From a virus, in the IMG/VR virus record IMGVR_UViG_3300023049_000551, positions 1 through 29,377 of that record: a stretch of DNA of 29,377 nt; one strand, 5' to 3'. Shown here piece by piece: positions 9,118 through 27,971 of this stretch (position 1 is its first letter; every line of letters starts with the position of its first letter). Made by a program: the position numbers and the translations under genes. Under the pieces are notes generated by a model. It saw only the letters and a program-made list of their open reading frames with translations, searched no databases and was not told where the DNA came from.

Positions 9118-9402
9118 ATGAAATTTAAACAGATTACTTACAAAGATAAAGCCTATAAAAATATTGATACGATAGTAGAGATACTTAAAGAAGAGGAATT
9201 CTATTGGTTAATAGACTCCGAAATTTCCAACGCAGTTATAGAAATAAGAAAGAATACTCTAATATGGCATGATGGTGTTTACCTAAGTGGTAATTGGCAT
9301 TATGGTGTATTTAAAGGGGGTGAATTTTATGGTAATTGGTTAAATGGAATTTTTGAAGATGGGCTTTTTAGTGGTAAGTGGAACAGTGGATTAAGAATAT
9401 AA
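9118..9402 (+). CDS. MORN-like repeat small protein
   Basis: 94 residues. The first half is a mixed helical segment; the second half (about 50-92) is built of short repeats of the type G-x-F/W-x-x-G-x-F-x-G-x-W, for example GVFKGGEFYGNW then GIFEDGLFSGKW. These resemble MORN repeats, which fold as stacked beta hairpins and usually mediate binding. It is the first of two plus-strand genes (gap of 24 nt to the next). A variant of the late box (ATAATATATA) lies about 20 nt upstream. Function unknown. Confidence 0.65.
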   Translation: MKFKQITYKDKAYKNIDTIVEILKEEEFYWLIDSEISNAVIEIRKNTLIWHDGVYLSGNWHYGVFKGGEFYGNWLNGIFEDGLFSGKWNSGLRI

Positions 9403-11835: not shown

Positions 11836-12351
11836 ATGGCAAAGATTAAGAAAGAAAGACAAATGGTATTTAGTAGTGAGAACGTTACCGAGGCTACTGA
11901 TAAGATAAATGATGGTATAGTACTAAAAAGGTTTCAAAATCCTTGGCTTAAAAACGAAATAGGGTTAAGAAGATCAGGTCTTACATTTAAGATGACAAGT
12001 GCCGAACAAGGAGAATACATTAAATGTGCACTAGATATACACCATTTTACCGAAAAATACTGTAAGGTGAAAAGAGAAGATGGTTCTATTGGAGCAATAA
12101 CACTTAGAGACTATCAAGCTGACATATTAGATAATTTTGTTGATAATCGATTCAATATATTAATGGCTAGTAGGCAGGTGGGTAAGTGCTTGACCTTCAA
12201 CACTTTATGCGAAATTAAGAGCAAGGAAATTAGAAAAGAATATAGAATTGGTAAACTATATTACTACATGCTTAAGCAAGAAAGATCACTAACATTATTA
12301 GAAAAAATAAAAATTAAACTATATGATATTTTATTTTTGCTAGAAAAATAA
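11836..12351 (+). CDS. terL: Large terminase N-terminal fragment fused to N-intein
   Basis: 171 residues. Residues 1-117 are the N-terminus of the T4 gp17-type packaging motor, including LRDYQADILD and the ATPase P-loop start ASRQVGK. At residue 118 the P-loop is interrupted by CLTFNTLCEI, a clear intein block A with the essential Cys1. The remaining 54 residues are intein and end in an amphipathic helix (TLLEKIKIKLYDILFLLEK), after which a true stop occurs. The expected Thr of GKT appears only in the next terL ORF (13886), directly after an intein C-terminal HN. Thus the fragment must be joined by protein trans-splicing to give an active ATPase. An AT-rich late-type box lies upstream. Confidence 0.93.
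   Translation: MAKIKKERQMVFSSENVTEATDKINDGIVLKRFQNPWLKNEIGLRRSGLTFKMTSAEQGEYIKCALDIHHFTEKYCKVKREDGSIGAITLRDYQADILDNFVDNRFNILMASRQVGKCLTFNTLCEIKSKEIRKEYRIGKLYYYMLKQERSLTLLEKIKIKLYDILFLLEK
12187..12348 (+). other. Split intein, N-terminal fragment (54 residues)
   Basis: Starts with Cys1 (codon 12187-12189) in block A, CLTFNTLCEI. It has no block B and so is much shorter than a normal N-intein. The split therefore falls between blocks A and B, as in the atypically split AceL-type TerL inteins. The C-terminal helix probably pairs with the N-terminal helix of the partner fragment at 13436. Confidence 0.9.
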
Positions 12352-12421
12352 TTTACCTATTTGATAACAAGCCAACATCTTTTTATATATAAAAGCATTT
12401 AATAATAAAACAGAATAAATT

Positions 12422-13417
12422 ATGATAATAAATGATAATAAAGAAACTGTAACATGTAGAATATGTGGTGAGCAATGTAAAAGAATATATGGTAAACATT
12501 TAAAATTTGCACATAATAATATGACTACTAAAGAATATAAAGAATTGTACGAAGGTGCTCCTATAATGGCATTATCAGATAAGGCTAAGACAACAATTAA
12601 AAGTGGTAAGCATATGAAGACAGAAAAGTATAAAAAAATGTTTGCAGATAAAATAAGAGGCAGAAAAAATCCTAATCACAAAGAAAATACAACTGAATTA
12701 GAAAGAAAATCGAGAAGTCCATTTTCAAAGAACTTTTCAAAATATGAAGGTATAGAGAATATAGAGAAGCATATAAGTATTTTTGCAAAGGAAGCTATTA
12801 AGGATAGAATATCAGATACTACTTTAGAATACTATTTACTGAAAGGTTATGATGAGGAAACATCTAAAAAGATGCTTAGTGAAAGACAAAGTACATTTTC
12901 TCTAAAAAAATGTGTAGAAAAATATGGTGATGTTGGTGGTAAGAAAAGATGGCTAGATAGACAAACACTTTGGCAGAAAAATTTGGCAGAAAATGGTAAT
13001 ATGAAATGTGGCTATTCTGAAATATCACAAGACCTATTTAAAAAGATAAGTAAGATTTATACAGATAATGAACTAAAACGTGTACACTATGCAATAAAAA
13101 ATAAAGAGTTCTTTATATCAGTTAAAGATGTAGGATTTTTCTCATATGACTTCACTGATAGAAAAAGAATGAAAATTATCGAATACAATGGTGATTTATA
13201 CCATGCAAATCCTAAAACTTTCAAAGAGAACGATTACCCACATCCTTTCTATAAAGAAAGTGGGCCTACTGCAAGGGAAATATGGGATAAAGATAATTTA
13301 AAAATAAATATTGCTAAATCAAAAGGATTTGATATTCTAATAATATGGGATACTGAATATAAAAGCAAAAAAGATTTAACTATTAAAAAATGTATAGATT
13401 TTTTAAATAATGTATAG
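12422..13417 (+). CDS. Vsr-like homing endonuclease within the fractured terL gene
   Basis: 331 residues. The N-terminus has a zinc finger of the MucR-like kind (C12-x2-C15, H26, H31). A middle region (about 60-230) is rich in Lys and contains a KYGDVGGKKRW motif. The C-terminal nuclease core has YDFTDRKRMKIIEYNGDLYH (D243, E254, H261), then REIWDKDN and ILIIWDTE, as in Vsr/EDxHD nucleases. The gene has its own start and stop and sits exactly between the two split-intein halves, 70 nt after the first and 18 nt before the second. This is the 'fractured gene' arrangement reported from marine metagenomes. It probably cuts intein-free terL alleles and so spreads the whole cassette. Confidence 0.88.
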   Translation: MIINDNKETVTCRICGEQCKRIYGKHLKFAHNNMTTKEYKELYEGAPIMALSDKAKTTIKSGKHMKTEKYKKMFADKIRGRKNPNHKENTTELERKSRSPFSKNFSKYEGIENIEKHISIFAKEAIKDRISDTTLEYYLLKGYDEETSKKMLSERQSTFSLKKCVEKYGDVGGKKRWLDRQTLWQKNLAENGNMKCGYSEISQDLFKKISKIYTDNELKRVHYAIKNKEFFISVKDVGFFSYDFTDRKRMKIIEYNGDLYHANPKTFKENDYPHPFYKESGPTAREIWDKDNLKINIAKSKGFDILIIWDTEYKSKKDLTIKKCIDFLNNV

Positions 13418-13435
13418 ATAAAAATAATAAAAAAA

Positions 13436-13885
13436 ATGATTACACTTCTTAAAAAAATATTGATTGAGTTGATAGAAAAATCTATTGAGTTGATAGAAAA
13501 ATACCAATATAGAAATGTATCATTGGATGAGGATGATATTTCTAAAAAAATATTAAAATCTATATCTTTAATAGATATTAGAGTAAAGACTGATACTGGA
13601 TATGAGGCAGTATCAGAGATACATTTAACACAACCATTTAATCATTATAATATCAAAACTATTGACGGTCTTAGCTTAACTTGTGCAGATAATCATATAT
13701 TATTTGATGAATATTTTGATGAAGTATTCTGTAAAGAATTAAAAATAGGCGATACTATAAAGACCAAAAATGGCAATAGTATTGTGAAGCATATAAAAAA
13801 GGAAGATTATAAATCATCTATGTTTGATTTATCGGTAGACCATCAGAATCATAGGTTCTACACAAATGGAATACTTTCACACAAT
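13436..13885 (+). other. Split intein, C-terminal fragment (150 residues)
   Basis: Contains block B (LTCADNHILF), block F (MFDLSVDHQNHRFYTNGIL) and block G ending in His-Asn, with extein Thr as the +1 nucleophile at 13886. Being 150 residues it holds most of the intein fold. It starts with an extra amphipathic helix (MITLLKKILIELIEK and so on) that mirrors the last helix of the N fragment. Confidence 0.9.
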
Positions 13886-16783
13886 ACTATATCTGCTTCT
13901 ATATTTATGCTTCATACAATACTATTCAATAATGATAAAAACATTATGATTGTAGCTAACAAGGGAGATACATCAGTTGAGATTGTTGACAAGATAAAAT
14001 CCATTTATTCATTACTACCATTTTTTTTAAAACCTGGTATAAAAACATGGAATCAAAAATCACTAACATTTGACAATGGTTGTCGTATTAAGACCTCTGC
14101 TAGGACAAAGACTCCAGCTATTGGTTTTACTATTGATGTTCTTTATTTAGATGAATTTGCACATATTCCTTCAAACATAATAGAACCATATTATACTGCG
14201 GTTTTTCCAACAGTATCTGCAATAAAAAACTCTAAAATAATAATCACATCTACACCAAATGGTATGAATTTATTTCATAAATTACTTACTAATGCAGAAC
14301 GACCAGCTGGTGACCCACAAAGAAACAACTACACCCCCATGAGGGTTTACTGGTATCAAGTCCCTGGTAGGTTTGTTACATATATAAGGCTTAATGATCA
14401 TAAATTATACGAAAACAAAATAGAAAAGGATGATATTCTTAATCAAGTACATAATAAATGGGGTGCTGATACTAAGGTCGAAATGAGTTGGAGTGTTGAT
14501 TTACAAAAATATGTAATCGAGGTTTATAATAATGATTATTGTCATGATGAGGATGTTGTTGGATTTAATATAAAAACACCCGATGGGAAAGAGATATCTA
14601 TACTAGAGTTAGCAGAACTTACTACATGGAAGGATGAGGCAATAAAAGATATTGGTGGAGAAGATGCTTTTAACCAAGAATACGGTCTTAGATTTGTAAA
14701 TGCTAGTAAATCTTTACTAAGTGAAAATATTATAGACCATTTATTGAATAATAAAATTCTTTATGAGTGGGAGGAGATATATGAATTTGAAGATAAGCTA
14801 AATTTTTCCTATGAAAATTTAAAATGGGTTGATGATTATGATATATACAACCCTATAAAAAGAAAAGAATATAAAATAGTCTTATCAATTGACCTTGCAG
14901 AGGGATTAGGTCAAGATTTTTCTGTTATAAACATATTCAGAATAAGTAATAAAAGTAGAGAGGTCATAGATATACAAAAAGAAAAGTATTCATCAATAAA
15001 GGATTTTTTCAAACTAGAACAAATTGGGATATATCGAAGTAATATAATATCTATTAAACAAATGTCAGAATTGCTTTATATATTAGCTTTTGAATATTTT
15101 AATCCAGATAACCTTAAAATAGTTTTAGAACTTAACAACTATGGAAATACATTACTAGCAGAACTACCTCATGTTTTTGATGGTATTAATGATTATGGTT
15201 CTTCTGTATTTGTTAGATATAAGCACAGAATAGATTCACCAGAAGAAAAGGTAGGACTTAAAGTAACAAGTTTAAAAAATTTACTTATAAAAGACTACCA
15301 ATCTCTAATGCTTAGTAAATCTTTCTCAATAAATAATGAAGACACCATAAGGGAAATAACCACATTTGTAAAACATACAACTAGTTCTGGTAATATAAAA
15401 TATGCAGCAGATAATGGAAACGATGATTGCGTTTTGCCAAACACTCTTATAAAGACTATAAATGGTTATAAAAGAATAAAAGATATCAAATTAGGTGAGT
15501 TGGTGTTAACACATTTAGGAAATTACAAACCAGTAACAAATATATGTAAAAAAGATTTTGATGGTGTTATGCACAGAATCAAATTTAGAGGCCAACCTAG
15601 CTTAGATATAACATATAACCATCCTATATATGTTCCAAAAAATGACTACTCAAAGAAAAATAGAAAGAATTATAATAATTATCTTAAGCGAGAGTGGATT
15701 TTACCAAGTGACATTTCTAATAAATCTAGGTGTGTTGTTATAAAATCACCTCTATATACTGGTGATGTTAATAATATCAAATATCAAGAATTATTTGAAA
15801 GGAATAAATATTCTCCGTCATCTAATTTTAAAATAAAGGAAATAGAACTAGATAATAATTTTGCTAAGTTTTTAGGCTTATTCTTAGCAGATGGTAACAG
15901 TTATAAACCATCTCATAATACTTACCGAATAACTTTAGCCTTTAATGATAAAGATTTAACTCTTATTGATGAAATGAAGGATATAATAAATAACTGGAAT
16001 TTAAAATATCATGTACAGAATAGAAATAATTGCACTACTGTGATATTTTATAATAGATTCTTATGGGAAATATTTTCTAAATGCTATGATGAAGATAAAG
16101 AGAAAATATTCCCCGAAATGCTCTATAACAAACTAGATAAAGAGAAAATGTCCCTAGTCCTAGATTATTGGATAAAGGGAGATGGTTGGCTCTGTGAAAC
16201 ACCTGGTAAGACTAAACATTACATAGGATGTTCAACTAGTTTTCAACTAGCATTGACTATGAGAGATATATCTATATCATTAGACAAACATGCAGTAATA
16301 TCCTATAATAAAAGACATAGATATGGTAAGCCTACGAAAAGCCAATATTGGGTATCTATTTATGAAGATAGTTTAGAAAGGTCATGTATGAGAAAGATTT
16401 CTGATTTTGAATATTCGTCAGTACTACAAAGAAATGAAAAGTATAATTATACTGGAACAACTTATAATTTAGAAGTAGAGGATGATAATAGTTATGTAGC
16501 AAATGGGATAGTTGTACATAATTGTGTCATGACTATTGTAAATGCTACATCTATATTCGAAAAGAACGAGTTTACAGAGATGATACACGAATGGATGAAC
16601 AAACATGTTGATAAGGAAATAGTTGATTACATAAATGAGTGTATGAAGAAATCTGATTATATAGAAAGTAATGATTACACACACTTTTTAGATGTGAAGA
16701 AAAAAACACTTGGTTCTAGAACTGGTGGTGGATATGGTCAGAGCAAATATAAGTCAAGTAGTGGATATGGAAGACGCAGGTAA
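13436..16783 (+). CDS. terL: C-intein + large terminase body + LAGLIDADG intein
   Basis: 1115 residues in four parts. 1-150: C-terminal half of the split intein, ending GILSHN. 151-664: terminase, starting with the T of the P-loop, with Walker B LYLDE (236-240), the coupling motif TSTPNG (271-276), nuclease motifs SIDLAEG (D486) and VLELNNYG (E565), and NGNDD (663-664). 665-1029: a full intein with LAGLIDADG endonuclease motifs. 1030-1115: the last 86 residues of terminase, ending in a Gly/Ser/Arg-rich tail. The mature protein after both splicing steps would be 717 residues (117+514+86), against about 610 for T4 gp17. It powers DNA packaging into the prohead and cuts the concatemer. Confidence 0.93.
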   Translation: MITLLKKILIELIEKSIELIEKYQYRNVSLDEDDISKKILKSISLIDIRVKTDTGYEAVSEIHLTQPFNHYNIKTIDGLSLTCADNHILFDEYFDEVFCKELKIGDTIKTKNGNSIVKHIKKEDYKSSMFDLSVDHQNHRFYTNGILSHNTISASIFMLHTILFNNDKNIMIVANKGDTSVEIVDKIKSIYSLLPFFLKPGIKTWNQKSLTFDNGCRIKTSARTKTPAIGFTIDVLYLDEFAHIPSNIIEPYYTAVFPTVSAIKNSKIIITSTPNGMNLFHKLLTNAERPAGDPQRNNYTPMRVYWYQVPGRFVTYIRLNDHKLYENKIEKDDILNQVHNKWGADTKVEMSWSVDLQKYVIEVYNNDYCHDEDVVGFNIKTPDGKEISILELAELTTWKDEAIKDIGGEDAFNQEYGLRFVNASKSLLSENIIDHLLNNKILYEWEEIYEFEDKLNFSYENLKWVDDYDIYNPIKRKEYKIVLSIDLAEGLGQDFSVINIFRISNKSREVIDIQKEKYSSIKDFFKLEQIGIYRSNIISIKQMSELLYILAFEYFNPDNLKIVLELNNYGNTLLAELPHVFDGINDYGSSVFVRYKHRIDSPEEKVGLKVTSLKNLLIKDYQSLMLSKSFSINNEDTIREITTFVKHTTSSGNIKYAADNGNDDCVLPNTLIKTINGYKRIKDIKLGELVLTHLGNYKPVTNICKKDFDGVMHRIKFRGQPSLDITYNHPIYVPKNDYSKKNRKNYNNYLKREWILPSDISNKSRCVVIKSPLYTGDVNNIKYQELFERNKYSPSSNFKIKEIELDNNFAKFLGLFLADGNSYKPSHNTYRITLAFNDKDLTLIDEMKDIINNWNLKYHVQNRNNCTTVIFYNRFLWEIFSKCYDEDKEKIFPEMLYNKLDKEKMSLVLDYWIKGDGWLCETPGKTKHYIGCSTSFQLALTMRDISISLDKHAVISYNKRHRYGKPTKSQYWVSIYEDSLERSCMRKISDFEYSSVLQRNEKYNYTGTTYNLEVEDDNSYVANGIVVHNCVMTIVNATSIFEKNEFTEMIHEWMNKHVDKEIVDYINECMKKSDYIESNDYTHFLDVKKKTLGSRTGGGYGQSKYKSSSGYGRRR
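13463..13502 (+). repeat. 21-bp tandem repeat adding one heptad
   Basis: ATTGAGTTGATAGAAAAAT occurs twice (13463-13481 and 13484-13502), with a period of 21 bp. It encodes IELIEKS then IELIEKY, that is, exactly one seven-residue heptad duplicated in the dimerising helix of the split-intein C fragment. Confidence 0.92.
15428..16522 (+). other. LAGLIDADG intein in the terminase nuclease motif
   Basis: 365 residues. Block A is CVLPNTLIKT, block B includes LDITYNHPIYV, and the ending is NSYVANGIVVHN followed by extein Cys. Two LAGLIDADG helices are visible, FLGLFLADGN and LVLDYWIKGDG. Splicing and homing residues all appear intact. The insertion is immediately after the catalytic Asp-Asp of the RNase H-like nuclease, so splicing restores NDD|CVM. 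Confidence 0.93.
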
Positions 16784-24296: not shown

Positions 24297-26033
24297 ATGA
24301 TAATAAAAAAGACCATAACAATAAAGACCAAAGGGTGTAGAAAGATAAAATATTATAAATCACTTGGGTATGAAGTTCATAAAGATGAAATAGAAATAAA
24401 AATAGAACATATATCCAAGGGATCAAGACTCGATGTGGATGTATCTTGTGATTTTTGTAACAAGGAAGTCAATATACAGATAAAAGAGTATTTTAGAAAT
24501 ATATCAAATGGTAGTAAGTATGCCTGTTGTATGAAGTGTGGATCTCTAAAGGCTAAAGAAACTAGTATAAAAAAATACGGTGTAGACCACCCTATGATGC
24601 TAGAAGAAATACAAGAAAGCGTTAAAAAGACCAATATAGAAAAATATGGTGTTGAATACTTACAACAATCAAAAAAAATAAGAAAAAAGTCATCCCAAAC
24701 ATTAATTGATAAGTATGGAGTAGACCATATATCTAAATCAAAGCATTTTAAAAATAAATTTAAAGAAACTTGTCTTAAAAATCATGGTGTCGAGTATCCA
24801 ATGATGTCAAAAAAAGTAAGAGATAAATCAAGGACTACAAACATAAGAAAATATGGTGTTGAAAATCCTTCAATGTTAGAAAGTGTTAGACAAAGTGTTA
24901 ATAAGACTAATAAGGATAGGTATGGTCAATCTAACTATTTACTATCTGATGATTTTAAAACAAAAAATAAAAAGACTATGTCTAATAAATGGGATTCTGA
25001 TAATATTATGAAATCTGATATATTCAGACCAGGAAAGTTCTCAATATCTAGTGATGATAATTACATTAAGTATATTGATAATGGTATCTCTTTGATGAGG
25101 TGTTACAAAGAACATGATTATAAAATACATATAGATAATTATTTAAAAAGGTCAAGGTCTAACCTACCACTTTGTACTACATGTTATCCCATAAGCAGTT
25201 CACAATCAATAAAAGAGAAAGAACTACTAGAATATATAACTTCTAAATATAATGGTTCTATAATAAAATCTTATAGAGATGGTTTAGAAATAGATGTTTA
25301 CTTACCAGAACTTAATATAGGTTTTGAATTTAATGGATTATACTGGCATTCAGAAGAATATAAAGAAAAAAACTATCACTATGATAAGAGTAAATATTTT
25401 CTTGATAAAGGAATCAGAATAATACATATATGGGAAGATGATTGGGTAAATAATATAGAAATACTAAAATCACAAATATGTAACTGGTTGAGTATAAGTA
25501 ATAAAATAGGTGCTAGAAAATGTGTTATAAAAGAAATAAAAAATACGAAGATTGTAACTAATTTCTTAGACAAAAATCATATACAGGGAAGAGCAAAATC
25601 CTCACTAAAATTGGGACTGTACCACAATGAAGAATTGGTTAGTATAATGACCTTTGATCATTTAGAAGGTAGAAAAAGAATGATGAGTGATGAGTGGAAT
25701 CTTAACAGATTCTGTAATAAAAAGAATACTTCTGTAATTGGAGGTGCTAGTAAATTATTGAGTTATTTCGTTAAAAATCACAGTCCCAAAAGATTAATAA
25801 GTTATGCTGATAGCGACTGGTCTGATGGTGGTCTATATAAAAACTTAGGATTTGTGAAAATTAAAGAAACAAAACCAGACTATAAATATATCGTTGGTTG
25901 TAAGAGAATACATAAGTCAAATTATAAAAAATCTAATTTAAATACAAATCTAACAGAAAGTAAATTTATGAAAGATAATAACTATAAGAAGATATGGGAC
26001 TGTGGTAAAATAAAATTTGAGAAAAAATATTAA
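24297..26033 (+). CDS. Vsr-like (EDxHD-type) homing endonuclease with YG-V repeats
   Basis: 578 residues. The N-terminus includes CRKIKYYKSLGYEV (shared with the protein at 28395) and a zinc knuckle (C51/C54, C78/C81). Six or seven short K-Y-G-V-x-H/N-P repeats cover about 92-235. The nuclease core spans about 305-395: EIDVYLPELNIGFEFNG, YWHSE and WEDDW, giving D333, E344 and H351. A C-terminal domain with RFCNKK and IGGASKLLSY matches that of the protein at 352. The gene lies between two identical terminators, so it appears to have been inserted as a cassette between the 428-residue gene and the kinase gene. Target site unknown. Confidence 0.82.
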   Translation: MIIKKTITIKTKGCRKIKYYKSLGYEVHKDEIEIKIEHISKGSRLDVDVSCDFCNKEVNIQIKEYFRNISNGSKYACCMKCGSLKAKETSIKKYGVDHPMMLEEIQESVKKTNIEKYGVEYLQQSKKIRKKSSQTLIDKYGVDHISKSKHFKNKFKETCLKNHGVEYPMMSKKVRDKSRTTNIRKYGVENPSMLESVRQSVNKTNKDRYGQSNYLLSDDFKTKNKKTMSNKWDSDNIMKSDIFRPGKFSISSDDNYIKYIDNGISLMRCYKEHDYKIHIDNYLKRSRSNLPLCTTCYPISSSQSIKEKELLEYITSKYNGSIIKSYRDGLEIDVYLPELNIGFEFNGLYWHSEEYKEKNYHYDKSKYFLDKGIRIIHIWEDDWVNNIEILKSQICNWLSISNKIGARKCVIKEIKNTKIVTNFLDKNHIQGRAKSSLKLGLYHNEELVSIMTFDHLEGRKRMMSDEWNLNRFCNKKNTSVIGGASKLLSYFVKNHSPKRLISYADSDWSDGGLYKNLGFVKIKETKPDYKYIVGCKRIHKSNYKKSNLNTNLTESKFMKDNNYKKIWDCGKIKFEKKY

Positions 26034-27059: not shown

Positions 27060-27971
27060 ATGAAAAAAGCAAACTTTTATGAAGAAGTTACAGAACTAAT
27101 TAATTATAATTTTTCATATTTCGAATATACTAACAATACAACTAAATCCATTATAGTCTGCAATAAACACAAAACTAAATTTTCTAGAAACTTAAAACAA
27201 ATAAGAAAAGGCAACCTGTGTCCATTATGCTCTACAAAAGTAAAGACAACAGATAAATTCATACAAGAGTCTAAGAGAGTATGGGGAGAACATAAATGGG
27301 ATTATTCAAAAACTATGTACAAGTGTTCTAGGAGTAAATTAACAATAGGTTGCCGAAGTCATGGTACTTATTTTCAAATTTATCCTAAACAACATCTAAA
27401 CCAAGAAAAAGATTGTGATGTATGTAAAAGGGCAAAACTACAAGCTGACTTTATAGATAGTTCTAAAAGTATATGGGGAGAACATAAATGGGATTATTCT
27501 AATGTTAATTATACAAATAACAAAACACATGTTGATATAATATGTGTTAAGCATGGCATTTTTAGCCAAAGACCTGATAATCACTTATATAACATGAATG
27601 GATGTCCAGACTGTAATAAGTCAAAGGGGGAGAGTATGATAAGTATTTTTCTAGACAAAAATAAAATATTATATGAATTTCAAAAATCCTTTAATGGTTG
27701 TGTAAATAAGCTTCCTTTAAGATTTGATTTCTATATACCAAAATACAATATTTGTATTGAATATAATGGTGAACAACACTATAAGCCAGTAAAATACTTT
27801 GGTGGTGTTAAAAATTTGGAATATAATAGAAAAAAAGATAAGATAAAACAAGAATTTTGTGCAAATAATAGAATAAATCTATTAATAATCAAATATGACG
27901 AATCTGTTAATGAAAAGTTAAAACTTATTGATAAAAATATATATAATATATATAAAAATAATAGAACATAA
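27060..27971 (+). CDS. Zinc-module homing endonuclease
   Basis: 303 residues. Three zinc modules are seen: an N-terminal one (C34, H37, C54, C57), and two related ones each with a WGEHKWDYS motif followed by C-x-x-H-G and C-x-x-C (about 71-122 and 133-185). The nuclease core follows: KGESMISIFLD (E191), RFDFYIPKYNICIEYNGEQHY (D223, E234, H240), then YFGG and LLIIKYDE. The gene ends directly at the gp55 ATG, with no gap, and carries its own late box. The two central modules share an identical 28-nt stretch, pointing to a recent internal duplication. Confidence 0.8.
   Translation: MKKANFYEEVTELINYNFSYFEYTNNTTKSIIVCNKHKTKFSRNLKQIRKGNLCPLCSTKVKTTDKFIQESKRVWGEHKWDYSKTMYKCSRSKLTIGCRSHGTYFQIYPKQHLNQEKDCDVCKRAKLQADFIDSSKSIWGEHKWDYSNVNYTNNKTHVDIICVKHGIFSQRPDNHLYNMNGCPDCNKSKGESMISIFLDKNKILYEFQKSFNGCVNKLPLRFDFYIPKYNICIEYNGEQHYKPVKYFGGVKNLEYNRKKDKIKQEFCANNRINLLIIKYDESVNEKLKLIDKNIYNIYKNNRT

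Follow-up and report, generated by a model that had tools for sequence, protein, structure and literature searches.

A split intein in a phage large terminase gene, with a predicted helical hairpin at an atypical break

Few naturally atypically split inteins have been described, and passages of PMC13014065 and PMC11766414 give their N-terminal intein fragments (IntN) as 15–37 residues long, with split sites S1 and S2. AceL-TerL, GOS-TerL and Cat are split after helix alpha-1 (S2; PMC13014065, in part) and have an IntN of 25–37 residues (PMC11766414, PMC13014065, both in part), while VidaL has an IntN of 16 residues and is split at S1 (PMC13014065, in part). Here we analyse an intein found in a 29,377-base virus record (the window), in which two open reading frames (ORFs), at 11836–12351 and 13436–16783, encode TerL, the large terminase of a T4-like phage. 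Like AceL-TerL, GOS-TerL and Cat, this intein is atypically split, but its IntN is 54 residues long, followed by a C fragment of 150 residues. This division also differs from the canonical one of DnaE, gp41 and NrdJ, which falls at the endonuclease site and yields fragments of about 100 and 35 residues. We favour, with a probability of roughly 0.7, an account in which an atypically split TerL intein docks through a pair of helices, gained this hairpin once and underwent recurrent re-fusion. The locus is organised as follows.

11836–12186, + strand: TerL N-extein, 117 residues, with the Walker A end ...NRFNILMASRQVGK and a PHROG terminase match.
12187–12348, + strand: N-intein, 54 residues, with Cys1, block A, helix alpha-1 and putative hairpin helix 1; homologues were found.
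12292–12348, + strand: putative hairpin helix 1, the N tail TLLEKIKIKLYDILFLLEK, aligned to helix 97–112 of model m6a26ed809649.
12422–13417, + strand: free-standing nuclease-like ORF, 331 residues, with a putative Ros/MucR-like finger and a putative Vsr/DUF559-like nuclease domain.
13436–13885, + strand: C-intein, 150 residues, with helix 2, blocks B (CADNH), F and G (SHN), and Thr at +1; Pfam Intein_splicing.
13436–13501, + strand: C head, or putative hairpin helix 2, 22 residues, aligned to helix 115–128 of model m6a26ed809649.
13463–13502, + strand: tandem repeat IELIEKS/IELIEK, period 21 bp, 1.9 copies, 100% identity (Tandem Repeats Finder).
13886–16783, + strand: TerL C-extein, starting TISASIFMLHTILF and enclosing a second, contiguous intein at 15428–16522.

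The insertion point of the intein is the Lys–Thr junction within Walker A (ASRQVGK|TISAS). The first ORF passes from ...NRFNILMASRQVGK into the intein start CLTFNT... and reaches its stop codon at 12349, and the C-intein ends in ...YTNGILSHN, directly followed by the C-extein. In a phage record with an empty site (L185), the uninterrupted TerL reads ASRQVGKTISASIFMLHTILF across the intein position, and joining the window exteins restores the L185 sequence precisely (ASRQVGKTISAS). The residues of a class 1 intein are present (Cys at position 1, the SHN end and Thr at +1), and both Pfam and NCBIfam match intein regions in the second ORF. Block B retains its His and has Ala at the Thr position of TxxH (ADNH), as does VidaL (CAFNH versus CADNH in the window). 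Among solved structures, VidaL (6vgv) matches best both by sequence (E 7e-13) and by fold, as evidenced by the AlphaFold2 model of an unsplit homologue, L075 (Z 18.9, root mean square deviation 1.8 over 139 residues). Many inteins matched this model at Z above 13, indicative of a Hint fold, and terminases and inteins were among the matches listed in a BFVD fold search. We conclude that this phage TerL carries a class 1 intein with an atypical split, whose splicing activity is predicted from its sequence. The split between blocks A and B proposed in a first-pass annotation of this DNA is confirmed by the coordinates of the ORFs and of the intein. Since Walker A is broken by the intein, proper ATP binding would not be expected of unspliced TerL, nor any ATPase activity before trans-splicing.

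The two ORFs might instead be joined in RNA by an intron, with no protein trans-splicing, and RNA-spliced phage terminase genes do occur elsewhere, as in ICP1 (PMC10448857, in part). This is highly improbable here, as both halves carry intein blocks and contiguous homologues encode the same intein. An intron between the TerL ORFs was rejected because the window has no Rfam match above threshold; the region has only a chance CRISPR-repeat match.

The C-intein and unsplit members served as queries in scans of viral contigs, and relatives were kept from two alignment scans (the best 80 of 436 and the best 80 of 483). The 161 rows parsed, 94 of which are distinct, include 72 distinct N/C pairs and 4 distinct unsplit inteins; the rest are lone C fragments, for which the N part was not found on that locus. 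A similar C part occurs in 318 phage records. All 72 pairs have the insertion site and the split position of the window. N fragments range from 46 to 72 residues in 71 pairs, exceeding the lengths of the short-IntN group (AceL, GOS, VidaL and PolB16; 15–37 residues), the exception being L069 (27 residues). By reading, the hydrophobic pattern of LTLLEKIKIKLYDILFLLEK is found in nearly all N fragments, and C heads, which in the window read MITLLKKILIELIEKSIELIEK, follow the pattern LIELIEKYEYR. A regular expression caught 61 of the 72 N tails, and most of the remaining 11 carry the helix by reading (e.g., L079 and L121). By reading, a helix lies on each side of the break in 71 of the 72 pairs; the exception is L069, whose short N fragment lacks helix 1. 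No hairpin head was found in L086–L088, the three loci read among seven from a further contig scan.

Four relatives feature single open frames through the site: L075 (194 residues), L080 (197), L160 (203) and L170 (192). In these unsplit inteins, the N-type helix runs directly into the C-type helix, as in LTFIEKLKYSLWKLYEYTVKHIILFLIQFLERIENR. The L075 model (46-row alignment; mean predicted local distance difference test, pLDDT, 84.2; predicted template modelling score, pTM, 0.67) has helix alpha-1 at 81–92, followed by helices 97–112 and 115–128. In alignment A5, the latter two correspond to the N tail and the C head, with the break at 113–114. In the split locus L101, both ORFs lie in one frame and are separated by 21 bases; when its two stops are read through, AlphaFold2 predicts helices at 99–116 and 125–148, with the gap forming a loop (mean pLDDT 84.8, pTM 0.73). 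The sequence profile of the C fragment aligns with VidaL, gp41-1 and CatC only downstream of the C head (from position 47 in the VidaL match, and over positions 43–150 of the window C-intein in the CatC match), and the helix pair consequently looks like an addition to the common intein fold. Ackermannviridae TerL mini-inteins (Vi01, KWBSE43-6, VAP7, LIMEstone1 and 3M) occupy the same Walker A site (GK|T) and have a homologous C part, but are single chains of 159–179 residues; by reading, the helix pair between alpha-1 and the strand was not found in any of these five contiguous inteins. In Salicola phage SCTP-2 (L175), the C fragment has no head.

The first-pass annotation had read the two helices as copies of a single one that became duplicated at the break; the C-side copy would have grown by one heptad, and Lys and Glu charges might hold the two together. 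Although the window N tail and C head do align (score 35, p about 0.02, relative to shuffles of the window's own C head), the resemblance is weak, and only 11% of the 72 pairs reach p<0.05, most strongly in the clade of L045/L051/L055. Moreover, all four unsplit homologues contain two helices, not one. As these proteins (192–203 residues) compare with a median N + C length of 204 in split pairs, no helix was duplicated there, and the break is a gap in a chain of unchanged length. The tandem repeat is real, and at period 21 it exceeds chance, the longest run at periods 18/21/24 being 7–14 in 60 Markov-2 simulations of 29 kb; it is not a perfect 21-bp repeat, however, as only 19 bp recur exactly. 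C-head length, measured up to the conserved anchor Y-x-Y-R, varies from 8 to 29 residues and equals 22 in 27 of the 72 pairs, including the window, L027, L010, L012, L014, L028 and L029. Because the window C head is as long as those of these six near relatives, the repeat did not enlarge helix 2. In the alignment, the first heptad of the window occupies, with no gap, the column of a different heptad in relatives, and the repeat reads as a change confined to part of helix 2 that leaves its net length unaltered. Charges are not complementary either: in the window, the net charge is +1 for the N tail and either 0 (22 residues) or +1 (with YQYR) for the C head. Across the pairs, the N tail is positive in 62 of 72 (mean +2.6), but the C head is negative in just 6 of 72 (mean +1.5), so that charge pairing is not conserved. 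Overall, duplication of one helix at the break is very unlikely. In L051, L055, L044 and L045, the N tail and the C head are alike beyond shuffles (scores 27–58, p<0.02), possibly reflecting convergence or an older relation between the helices.

What stands of the proposed docking device is the occurrence of helices on both sides of the break in both AlphaFold2 models, while charge pairing, duplication and enlargement fail. A role of the hairpin as a docking element, acting through hydrophobic packing, is plausible and in our judgement likely, given its position at the break, its presence across the family, its absence in the related contiguous inteins read, and the AlphaFold2 models. Alternatively, the helices, which are rich in hydrophobic residues, might each pack elsewhere, be it against their own fragment, the nuclease protein or TerL, for instance to maintain solubility, and the lack of conserved charge pairing would fit this reading. 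We consider this rather unlikely, as the helices lie exactly at the break, are missing from related contiguous inteins, and persist both after re-fusion and where there is no nuclease.

In a tree with outgroup rows, the hairpin family is set apart from the Ackermannviridae inteins (support 100/98). Unsplit members are scattered, their grouping in a single clade being rejected (p-value of the approximately unbiased test, p-AU, 0.00015), and starred branches force 4 changes in the tree without outgroups. In the latter, the split partners of L075, L160 and L170 are L061, L169 and L024/L025, respectively. These separate positions suggest an order in which the split and the gain of the hairpin were followed by the arrival and departure of nuclease genes and by repeated re-fusion. 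It is likely that the hairpin was gained with or near the split and that the halves re-fused at least four times. The opposite order, in which a contiguous hairpin intein came first and nucleases invading the hairpin tip broke it independently on many occasions, leaving the unsplit four as leftovers, is unlikely. Hairpin tips are tolerant sites, outgroup inteins are mostly contiguous, and the gap holds nuclease ORFs of at least two families, all of which would suit that order. In contrast, split inteins make up 86 of 90 rows, and the other four are dispersed over the tree; L075, L160 and L170 adjoin split rows with starred support, and independent splits need far more changes than re-fusions.

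Several points weigh against the account of docking helices and re-fusing halves. Helix–helix contact is deduced from the short loops in both models, rather than read from them directly. Covariation between the helices (70 of the 72 pairs; L069 and L169 were left out) is enriched with a reduced alphabet, which places 8 helix–helix pairs in the top 40 versus 2.3 expected; the enrichment disappears under the full alphabet (3 versus 2.3), and the top covarying pair tracks a subfamily division. The amphipathic moment of the window's helices alone is not significant (p 0.21 and 0.056). Trees rest on 106 to 129 columns and leave many forks unresolved, re-fusion is deduced by equal-cost parsimony, and sampling began from a split query, which biases counts towards split rows. 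While L160 was found in identical form on three contigs, L075, L080 and L170 are each known from a single one.

The 331-residue ORF in the window gap is probably a homing endonuclease, judging from its domain likenesses. It shows a weak Ros/MucR likeness at its N end, and its family a weak Vsr/DUF559/MTES_1575 nuclease likeness at the C end; among 20 family members, ROS_MUCR, MTES_1575 and DUF559 are matched in 11, 10 and 8, respectively. Sequence matches in the PDB are weak (E 0.13 for 3r3p, listed as a mobile intron protein, which we take to be I-Bth0305I, and E 2 for Vsr). Gap nuclease ORFs vary between loci, though most resemble that of the window. L015, L016, L040 and L058 carry a gap ORF of 574–576 residues on the opposite strand, which matches DUF7487 in the two loci scanned (L015 and L058), and the gap ORF of L083, likewise of DUF7487, is encoded on the same strand. 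Split gp41 and NrdJ inteins are also known to have a homing-type nuclease ORF between the gene halves; in work by Dassa dating from 2009, these inteins were reportedly split at the canonical position and had no hairpin.

Of the 26 locus records in which the halves are separated, or overlap, by fewer than 330 bases, 20 contain nuclease remnants (E<0.05), corresponding to 13 of 16 distinct short-gap loci once repeated or identical loci are grouped. The smallest gaps measure 21 (L101), 14 (L134) and −5 bases (L110), and, as judged from sequence, make up a series of states towards fusion. At L110 (2911–3724), the N-intein tail continues directly into what is left of the nuclease C-terminus (...LDWNKDPKQTLKKCIKFLND) and overlaps the C-intein start, an arrangement that reads as a nuclease deletion caught in place.

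In the account that we favour, the intein fold would contain an insertion of two helices, placed after helix alpha-1 and before the beta strand that follows, and the break would lie at the tip of this insertion. Helix 1 would belong to the N fragment, and helix 2 to the C fragment. Upon association of the fragments, these hydrophobic helices would most likely re-form the hairpin and provide an extra docking surface; closure of the Hint fold would then allow ligation of ASRQVGK to TISAS. The hairpin would have arisen once in the clade, with or close to the split, and several nuclease genes would have settled in the gap and been lost repeatedly. In at least four lineages, as suggested by the tree, the halves would have fused again at the hairpin tip, with both helices retained.

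Other features of the window are worth recording. Long free-standing DUF7487 ORFs with a Vsr-like motif (FNGVYWHS..., ITIWEDDW) are found at 352–2046 (− strand) and 24297–26033 (+ strand); DUF7487 probably comprises homing-type nucleases, given that L015 and L058 also carry it, on the opposite strand, in their TerL gap. A 303-residue ORF at 27060–27971 (+ strand) has repeated zinc-finger-like modules and a nuclease-like motif (IEYNGEQHY), and no Pfam match was obtained for it at E<=0.1. A short ORF at 9118–9402 (+ strand) contains repeated G-x-W/F motifs (LSGNWHYGVFKGGEFYGNWLNGIFEDGLFSGKWN). The second intein of the TerL C-extein is 365 residues long, includes an internal LAGLIDADG-like stretch and is inserted at NGNDD|C...VVHN|C, presumably near the TerL nuclease active site.

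With this family, dozens of naturally occurring N/C pairs become available in which the break carries an additional helix pair, a possible resource for orthogonal protein ligation. Its unsplit members allow the order of split, hairpin, nuclease and re-fusion to be tested. In titles and abstract openings of the open-licence literature, no report of natural re-fusion of split inteins was found. We tentatively propose, at somewhat less than even odds, that a helical-hairpin zipper evolved as the intein broke and stabilised the split state, permitting a cycle of nuclease invasion, nuclease loss and re-fusion of the halves at the hairpin tip. If this is true, split inteins can become contiguous again, and can do so repeatedly at the same place.
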